The position numbers and the translations under genes were made by a program. A model generated the notes under the pieces. That model was not told where the DNA came from. It did not search any database and was given only the letters and a program-made list of their open reading frames with translations. A stretch of DNA of 64,000 nt from Thermococcus radiotolerans (GTDB lineage: Archaea > Methanobacteriota_B > Thermococci > Thermococcales > Thermococcaceae): the NCBI RefSeq assembly GCF_002214565.1, contig NZ_CP015106.1, forward strand, positions 496,001 to 560,000. The letters are read 5' to 3'. Of this stretch, positions 7,361 to 40,827 are shown piece by piece. Every line of letters begins with the position of its first letter. Within the stretch, counting starts at the first letter, position 1.

Positions 7361-8014
7361 CTACAGCATTTTTCTTACCAGCCCCACAAGCTCCCGGAGG
7401 TCACTTACGTAGTAGTCGGCACCCTCGATTTTATCAAAGCGAGTTACGTTAACCACCTTCATGCCGGCGCGCTTTCCAGCGAGCACATCGTGACGGCTGT
7501 CGCCTATCATCAGCGCTTCCCTCGGCTTCAGATTGAGGGCTTTCAGGGCCTTTTCAACGAGATAAGGGCTAGGCTTGACGCCGTCCAGATTTGAATAGTC
7601 CTTTCCGTAAACAACCTCGAAGTGTTTTCTCAGATCGAAGAGGTTCAAAACGAACTCCGTGCATTCCTGGGAGGCGTTGCTCACTGCGGCGAGCCTCAGA
7701 CCCATCGCCTTCAGCTCTCCAAGGGCATCAACGTCTGGGAAGGGCCGTATTTTTCCCCGTTCGGCCATCCACCGGCGGTACTCAAGGTTCACGCCGTCGA
7801 CAATTTTCCAGAACTCCACGTGGTTTATGCCGAAGCTCTCAATGTAGCTCCTCGGCAGCTCGCCGGTTACGGTCTTTCTGTAGGTCTCGTAGTCCAGCTC
7901 GATGCCTCGCTCCCGAAGGGCCGGCATAACCCACTTCTCATACCATTCCCTGTGGTCGTAGCCCTCGTAGTAAACAAGGGTCTCGTCAACGTCGAATATC
8001 AATCCTTTGAGCAT
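7361..8014 (-). CDS. HAD-superfamily hydrolase
   Basis: This is a soluble phosphatase-like protein of 217 residues. The catalytic motif I is DVDET near the N-terminus, motif II falls in AAVSNAS, and motif III/IV is MIGDSRHDVLAGKRAGM near residue 170-186. The helical cap between motifs I and II places it in subclass I, like phosphoglycolate phosphatases. ATG 8014 is chosen because AGGAGG lies just upstream; in-frame codons further upstream belong to an overlapping box C/D sRNA. The substrate is unknown. Confidence 0.88.
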   Translation of the reverse strand: MLKGLIFDVDETLVYYEGYDHREWYEKWVMPALRERGIELDYETYRKTVTGELPRSYIESFGINHVEFWKIVDGVNLEYRRWMAERGKIRPFPDVDALGELKAMGLRLAAVSNASQECTEFVLNLFDLRKHFEVVYGKDYSNLDGVKPSPYLVEKALKALNLKPREALMIGDSRHDVLAGKRAGMKVVNVTRFDKIEGADYYVSDLRELVGLVRKML

Positions 8015-8071
8015 GCCTCGGCCTCCTGGACTGGTCATCATCCTTCAGCCGGTTGATCCTTCGTCATCGGC
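8015..8071 (-). ncRNA. Box C/D guide sRNA; D' guide matches the 16S rRNA 5' end
   Basis: Read on the minus strand, a GCC/GGC closing stem (8069-8071 with 8015-8017) encloses box C ATGACGA (8061-8067), a 12-nt guide (8049-8060), box D' CTGA (8045-8048), a 3-nt spacer, box C' ATGATGA (8035-8041), a 13-nt guide (8022-8034) and box D CCGA (8018-8021). The D' guide AGGATCAACCGG is a perfect complement of CCGGTTGATCCT, the conserved beginning of archaeal 16S rRNA. By the N+5 rule it would methylate the first U of GGUUGA. A TATA-like element at 8092-8100 lies about 25 bases upstream. The D guide contains the AGGAGG ribosome site of the HAD gene. Confidence 0.85.
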
Positions 8072-8102
8072 GTAGAAAGTAGGGAAAAGGAGTTAAAAAC
8101 CT

Positions 8103-8831
8103 TCAGAACAGCTCCTCAAGCTTGACGTCGATCTTGTCCGGGTTGAATGGCAGGACGTGCCTGGTGGTCTTCGGGGAGTAGACCTCGCCGCGCTTGACGA
8201 GCTCCATGACCTCTTCTTTGCTCGGGGCCTTCCTGATGAAGACGTAGTCGATCTCGCCCTTACCCATGTCCTCCCTGGCGTCTTCCTTGAGGCCGTAGTA
8301 GATGAGCTCGATTTTACCCTCGACGCTCATCTCGTCGAGAACCTTGCTGACCTTCTTCTGCTCTTCGAGTCCGCCGGGGATGGAGAAGCTCTTCTCGCCG
8401 ACGAGGGCAAAGGCTATCTCGCCCCTCTCGGCCTTCTCCTCGGCCTCCGGGTCCTCGATGACCTCGAGCCCCTCGGCCTTGAGCCTCTCGAGAACCTCCT
8501 CGAGGCTTCCCTTGAAGGCCGGGTACCAGGTGTAGACCTTGACATCGTCGCTGAAGTAGTCGAGGATGACGGACGGAGCCTTCTTGGCACCGAGCTTCTG
8601 GAGGCCGGCCCAGCGGTGGTGACCGTCAACGATGAGATACATGTCCTCACCGGGAACCTTGGCAAGGAGCATGGGCTTCCAGAAGATTCCACTACCGGTA
8701 ACACTCTCGATGAAGGCCTCAAGCTCCTTCTGAACGAGCTGCTCGTGGGGCTTCATCTTGTCGAGCTCGATAAAAACGTAGTCAACCTTCTTGGTGGGAA
8801 TGTCGTACTTCGGGACCTTTTCAACTCCCAT
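8103..8831 (-). CDS. serK: SerK, free L-serine kinase (ParB/sulfiredoxin fold)
   Basis: The sequence corresponds to the ADP-dependent free serine kinase described from Thermococcus kodakarensis, which phosphorylates L-serine to O-phosphoserine and so links serine to cysteine and 3-phosphoglycerate metabolism. The N-terminal ParB/sulfiredoxin-like domain holds the active-site region IVDGHHRWAGLQKLGAK; the usual DNA-binding part of ParB is absent. The length of 242 residues fits. The second of two close ATGs (8831) is chosen because GGAGGT is six bases upstream of it. A TATA element at about 8875-8884 drives it, divergent from DUF763. Confidence 0.88.
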   Translation of the reverse strand: MGVEKVPKYDIPTKKVDYVFIELDKMKPHEQLVQKELEAFIESVTGSGIFWKPMLLAKVPGEDMYLIVDGHHRWAGLQKLGAKKAPSVILDYFSDDVKVYTWYPAFKGSLEEVLERLKAEGLEVIEDPEAEEKAERGEIAFALVGEKSFSIPGGLEEQKKVSKVLDEMSVEGKIELIYYGLKEDAREDMGKGEIDYVFIRKAPSKEEVMELVKRGEVYSPKTTRHVLPFNPDKIDVKLEELF

Positions 8832-8930
8832 GAGCATACCTCCCGTGGGTTTACGATGAGGGAAACGCGCCAGGGGATAAAAAGGTTGTGCCGGGCAAAG
8901 GTTAAATCGTTTCGAGACCAATAACCAACG

Positions 8931-40769: not shown

Positions 40770-40827
40770 GCCCGATGACGAGCGGTTTCGGGTCTGAGGT
40801 GTGATGACACCAGCTATCGCCGAGGGC
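40770..40827 (+). ncRNA. Box C/D guide sRNA
   Basis: A GCCC/GGGC closing stem (40770-40773 with 40824-40827) encloses box C ATGACGA (40775-40781), a 12-nt guide (40782-40793), box D' CTGA (40794-40797), a 3-nt spacer, box C' GTGATGA (40801-40807), a 12-nt guide (40808-40819) and box D CCGA (40820-40823). A TATA element TTTATAA lies at 40741-40747, about 25 bases upstream. The D guide CACCAGCTATCG is complementary to CGATAGCTGG, a conserved element of 23S rRNA; the D' guide GCGGTTTCGGGT fits a conserved GAAACCG-containing region. Exact targets need alignment to this organism's rRNA. Confidence 0.82.

Follow-up and report, generated by a model that had tools for sequence, protein, structure and literature searches.

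In a Thermococcus clade, one half of a guide RNA conserved across the Thermococcaceae also serves the following gene as its ribosome-binding site

Can one short RNA be both a guide for ribosomal RNA and the leader of the gene that follows it? This question is raised by a 57-nt stretch (8015–8071, minus strand) of the window, by which we mean the whole stretch of Thermococcus radiotolerans DNA that was analysed (64,000 nucleotides). Two genes flank it on the same strand: upstream lies serK, encoding ADP-dependent L-serine kinase (8103–8855; NF053625, 406.9 bits against a cut-off of 380), and downstream lies a gene for a HAD-family hydrolase (7361–8014; PF13419, 7.8e-27) that is predicted to be translated from the sRNA leader. 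A sequence-only reading of this DNA had proposed a box C/D sRNA here with boxes, spacers and a closing stem, a D′ guide against the 5′ end of 16S rRNA, and a 3′ half that contains the Shine-Dalgarno (SD) site of the HAD gene and ends at its ATG. The RNA class, the 16S-end guide and the SD overlap all held up in our analysis. What that reading missed is that the RNA belongs to the sR14 family, that an orthologue is already known and that the SD overlap is restricted to one clade.

Read directly on the minus strand from 8071 to 8015, the RNA is GCC / AUGACGA / AGGAUCAACCGG / CUGA / AGG / AUGAUGA / CCAGUCCAGGAGG / CCGA / GGC. All elements of an archaeal box C/D RNA are present, with boxes in the order C, D′, C′ and D, guides of 12 and 13 nt, a 3-nt spacer and a 3-bp terminal stem formed by GCC (8069–8071) and GGC (8015–8017). 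Box C (AUGACGA, 8061–8067) differs at one base from RUGAUGA and reads AUGAUGA in Pyrococcus copies; it is followed by the D′ guide (8049–8060), box D′ (CUGA, 8045–8048), the AGG spacer (8042–8044), box C′ (AUGAUGA, 8035–8041), the D guide (8022–8034) and box D (CCGA, 8018–8021), which carries one change from CUGA. The off-consensus bases of boxes C and D both lie at the k-turn pair that adjoins the tandem G-A pairs. Within the D guide, AGGAGG (8022–8027) is the SD of the HAD gene, 7 nt before the ATG (8012–8014), which directly follows the GGC of the terminal stem. CCGAUGA was also considered as box C and rejected, since comparison with Pyrococcus puts the box at AUGACGA and gives a 12-nt guide and a 3-bp stem. 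Folded in isolation, the 57-mer is not unusually stable (z −1.25), which is expected of a protein-dependent k-turn and lends the assignment no support either.

An Rfam scan at a relaxed threshold identified the window copy as sR14 (RF01145) with 33.1 bits (E 2.2e-7), short of the gathering cut-off of 38 bits. Orthologues from Pyrococcus and several Thermococcus that carry the same D′ guide scored 41–62 bits; the window copy is thus a diverged sR14. Its low score appears to reflect the D half, which is Pyrococcus-like in the RF01145 model and differs in the window. The wider sR14 orthologous group, recognised by the D′ guide GGAUYAACCGG-CYGA with box C′ 2–6 nt further on, includes the window copy.

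The sR14 copy of T. kodakarensis KOD1 lies at 316134–316188 on the minus strand, and both of its ends agree within 4 nt with those of a published circular RNA, sR15/Tko-sR16 (316130–316191, transcription start at 316202; PMC9014305). Small-RNA sequencing gave 1,629,229 aligned reads for that RNA; its circular reads, 698 in number, were almost gone in an RNA-ligase knock-out (PMC9014305). The orthologue is a real and abundant RNA that also occurs in circular form, and the sRNA itself was already known. Another T. kodakarensis circle, from TK0058 (“HAD superfamily hydrolase”), was rejected as an orthologue, since in that genome the HAD orthologue (21 kb) is far from sR14 (316 kb). The D′ guide GGAUCAACCGG, the box order and the spacing are common to the window copy, the Pyrococcus sR14 of RF01145 and sR15/Tko-sR16, and the place downstream of serK is shared with KOD1 and many other Thermococcus. 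Unlike RF01145 and sR15, the window copy has AUGACGA as box C, CCGA as box D, a different D guide, an internal SD and an abutting HAD start. The window locus is a member of the known sR14 family; its SD overlap is clade-specific, and overlaps of this type have been described in a small share of archaeal C/D genes.

A search with a sequence-only model built from 15 orthologues found sR14 in 79 of the 94 Thermococcaceae genomes. A pattern of guide, box D′ and box C′, which by design leaves out a clade with a hairpin in the D′-C′ spacer (19–21 nt), occurred in 68 of the 94 and in none of 21 genomes from other families of the class; the reversed control pattern had no occurrences. Most loci have GGAUCAACCGG as their D′ guide, and GGAUYAACCGG is kept across divergent ones. 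One set of lineages carries GGAUUAACCGG, a C-to-U change by which the pair with 16S G10 becomes G-U and is retained, and the remaining changes in this guide mostly adjoin box D′.

Several variants of the family were seen in the same comparison. In the hairpin clade, a group of Thermococcus with sR14 upstream of the HAD gene (L012, L016, L020, L023, L024 and L031), a GC-rich hairpin such as ACCGCGCUUCGCGGU stands between boxes D′ and C′, and the D′ guide and SD are unaltered. Genomes G047 and G057 (L119 and L128) carry two sR14-like copies close together: in the HAD-side copy the D′ guide ends in CCCA and the D guide is complementary to 16S 44–55, and the nearby copy has GGAUUAACCGG. This looks like a duplication with a change of guide. 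At the k-turn pair adjoining the G-A pairs (boxes C and D, window 8061–8067 / 8018–8021), Pyrococcus has U-U, the window clade C-C and the hairpin clade A-U; as a k-turn with C at 3b is reported to fold in metal ions alone (PMC4382518), k-turn folding may differ between the clades. In Pyrococcus (L114, L115, L116, L135 and L149), sR22 lies about 50–100 nt from sR14 on the opposite strand, and the window itself holds another C/D sRNA, Rfam sR28, at 40771–40825 on the plus strand (58.3 bits, cut-off 39).

The D half, unlike the strongly conserved D′ guide, changes between clades. It reads AGUCCGCAUCAC-CUGA in Pyrococcus and CAUCGGUCUUGU-CUGA in KOD1 and its relatives, where it can form 12 pairs, wobbles included, with 16S 448–459 (9 of 150 shuffles were as good). 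In the HAD-linked copies of G047 and G057 it reads CGCAUGGCUUAU, with 11 contiguous pairs to 16S 44–55 (2 of 150 shuffles). For the D half of the window, CAGUCCAGGAGG-CCGA, the best rRNA site was matched by 83 of 150 shuffles. We therefore rejected the window D guide as an rRNA guide, its best site being no better than that of shuffles, and also as a tRNA guide, for which the 30 of 44 tRNAs covered held no convincing site. The 10-nt core of the sequence that this D guide would target, TCCTGGACTG, is present at one more position of the genome, 1183895 (L164), which lies in none of the 16S, 23S and tRNA genes.

The rRNA-complementary guide of this RNA is the one directly upstream of box D′. The genome’s own 16S rRNA begins AUUCCGGUUGAUCCUGCC / AUUCCGGUUGAUCCU; counting its A as nt 1, the D′ guide pairs with 16S nt 4–15 at 12 of 12 positions (duplex energy −20.9 kcal/mol), as the sequence-only reading had supposed for the start of the molecule. 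None of 150 shuffled guides reached its score on 16S and 23S rRNA, and these two rRNAs held no other site nearly as good. By an arithmetic estimate, a random 12-mer would have a perfect rRNA complement with a chance of about 3e-4. By analogy with E. coli, we take nt 4–15 to cover the 5′ side of two helices, CCGG in helix 1 and UCC in helix 2; this UCC faces GGA at about 863–865 of 16S (helix 2 / central pseudoknot).

In C/D guides, the methylation target is set by the fifth base from box D or D′. By this rule, applied from box D′, A8053 stands opposite U8 of 16S, and the D′ guide would direct 2′-O-methylation of U8. For the P. abyssi 30S subunit, tables based on 3.2 Å cryo-EM and mass spectrometry give only Am373, Cm1376 and ac4Cm250 as 2′-O-methylated and do not list a ribose methyl at the 16S 5′ end (PMC7005279). 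The missing entry is weak evidence at 3.2 Å, a resolution at which a map may miss such a methyl. RiboMeth-seq would be a weak test of U8, because fragments shorter than 20 nt are lost and coverage within 20 nt of the 5′ end of an RNA thus comes from one side only (PMC7758197).

Pairing over nt 4–15 would have two outcomes: methylation of U8 and a temporary block of the central pseudoknot. The second is what U3 does in eukaryotes, where its box A on helix 1 temporarily blocks the pseudoknot; according to reviews, no RNA is known to take this role in archaea, and one is awaited (PMC8339473, PMC3879963). The sRNA could be mainly a folding chaperone like U3 box A, one that keeps the 16S 5′ end occupied and so delays formation of helix 1 and the central pseudoknot, with methylation secondary or absent. 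Such a role would suit a guide that spans both CCGG of helix 1 and UCC of helix 2 on their 5′ sides, the ribose methyl that goes unlisted in P. abyssi and the vacancy that the reviews describe. However, the guide stands at exactly the distance from box D′ that methylation needs, and a methylating guide sequesters its target too. A mainly chaperoning role is a tentative possibility on the unlikely side, and we rank it second, behind a plain methylation guide that also chaperones. In either case the likeness to U3 is functional only. The window RNA pairs with the 5′ end of small-subunit rRNA in the manner of U3 box A, but it shows neither the pairing of U3 with the 5′ ETS and helix 27 nor its long 3′ domain. 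U3 also guides no methylation and sits in a large complex; none of these traits is seen for the window sRNA. At 57 nt, and with a second guide that does no better than shuffles on rRNA, it is not a U3 homologue.

Exactly GGC (3 nt) separates box D from the HAD ATG in 23 genomes, and in every one of them the D guide ends with the six bases AGGAGG. These genomes include the hairpin clade and copies in which box D is CUGA, CCGG or CGGA. Where the same CAGUCCAGGA guide occurs with no adjacent ATG, GGAGG is kept in only 3 of 10 cases, the others reading GGAGA, GGAAA, GGAAU or GGAUA. The difference is significant by Fisher’s test (p=2.8e-5), with the reservation that the genomes share ancestry and are not independent. 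The pattern of retention fits selection on the SD and not on a guide. A HAD start at the in-frame ATG in box C′ (8041) was excluded for the hairpin clade, in which that frame reaches TGA before the HAD ATG.

Some relatives have a gene between the sRNA and HAD, presumably DUF835-like. In genera g5 and g6, HAD lies 10–20 nt 3′ of the sRNA, and the g6 gene seems to have a separate SD beyond box D. Judged from these arrangements, the sRNA and HAD appear to be long-standing neighbours, and capture of the SD belongs to one part of the genus. Where the DUF835-like gene follows (L160, L152, L108 and L156), a recurring GCACCUACAUANNNANCUUACAAAAAA-like stretch is seen 3′ of the sRNA, perhaps a terminator or other conserved element. 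Used as a query in the named genomes, the HAD protein itself returned mostly distant bacterial HADs.

Overlap with the 5′ end of a gene is seen for 7% of archaeal C/D genes and reduces expression of the downstream gene (PMC7994747); T. kodakarensis has 11 C/D sRNAs in 5′ UTRs (PMC4247193). Like these, the window sRNA would come from the leader of the downstream gene, and the overlap has shaped its second guide, which is an orphan. Unlike them, the overlap in the window clade is the SD itself, kept across 23 genomes.

How the two functions might share one transcript is suggested by the upstream sequence. A TATA-like box, TTTTTAA (8093–8099, minus strand), lies immediately after the serK stop and is centred 25 nt before G8071, the sRNA 5′ end; a TTTTAA-like element is centred 25–28 nt upstream of the RNA in 43 of the 68 distinct family loci. 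At this distance the box would place the transcription start at or near the first sRNA base, so that the sRNA would be the whole HAD 5′ leader and one transcript would be both sRNA precursor and HAD leader. In T. kodakarensis the HAD gene is elsewhere and transcription starts 11 nt upstream of the circle end, so regulation through a shared transcript is unreadable from those data.

From such a transcript two fates would follow. In the first, L7Ae would bind the C/D and C′/D′ k-turns, followed by Nop5 and fibrillarin, the proteins expected from the family. The sRNP would shield a body of 57–62 nt, which would be trimmed and partly circularised, circles being known for the T. kodakarensis orthologue only. 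Its D′ guide, complementary to 16S nt 4–15, would methylate U8 by the D+5 rule and, while the subunit assembles, keep both helix 1 and the central pseudoknot open on their 5′ sides. The D half, which in the window clade has no visible rRNA constraint, would bear the HAD SD; the sRNP would conceal this SD and trimming would remove it. In the second fate, initiating ribosomes would cover box C′ to box D and block packing of the sRNP. It is plausible that sRNA processing and HAD translation exclude each other in this way. As a packed transcript could not be translated and a translated one could not be packed, an ample supply of free L7Ae and sRNP proteins would lower HAD output. There is a precedent in Sulfolobus, where L7Ae masks the SD beside a k-turn in its own leader and translation is repressed (PMC5539422). 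The 5′ UTR of the l7ae mRNA and the putative HAD leader share a k-turn that lies at the SD or close to it, but L7Ae-regulated leaders of this type are single k-turns and not guide RNAs (PMC5539422).

Another reading is that these 57 nt now serve mainly to regulate the HAD mRNA in cis, as a k-turn leader and L7Ae switch, and that this clade makes no free sRNA. The SD inside the element, the known L7Ae-bound leaders with a masked SD and the TATA-like box 25 nt upstream all agree with it, and some T. kodakarensis “snoRNAs” near 5′ ends have been proposed as cis elements. Yet such a leader needs no 12-nt guide complementary to 16S at exact spacing, and the guide is kept in many genomes in which HAD lies elsewhere or a DUF835-like gene intervenes; we judge this reading quite improbable. 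Chance likeness of an ordinary 5′ leader to a C/D RNA, to which the one non-consensus base in each of boxes C and D and the Rfam score under the cut-off might point, is next to impossible and is refuted by the comparative data (79 of 94 genomes, orthologues above the cut-off, and a sequenced and circular RNA in T. kodakarensis). It is probable that the locus is, as a whole, a Thermococcus orthologue of sR14 that would guide methylation of U8, open the pseudoknot and share the HAD leader with mutual exclusion.

The 16S target makes sR14 more interesting than an ordinary guide. The RNA faces the same rRNA end as U3, is kept through the Thermococcaceae and is abundant in T. kodakarensis. That sR14 is the functional counterpart of U3 box A, and that the clade’s supply of sR14 is tied to HAD translation through one either/or transcript, is a combined proposal that we consider doubtful as it stands; since T. 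kodakarensis has genetics, the question of a U3 counterpart is directly testable there. The window clade offers a natural example of a guide RNA with one half captured as a ribosome-binding site and the other held by rRNA.
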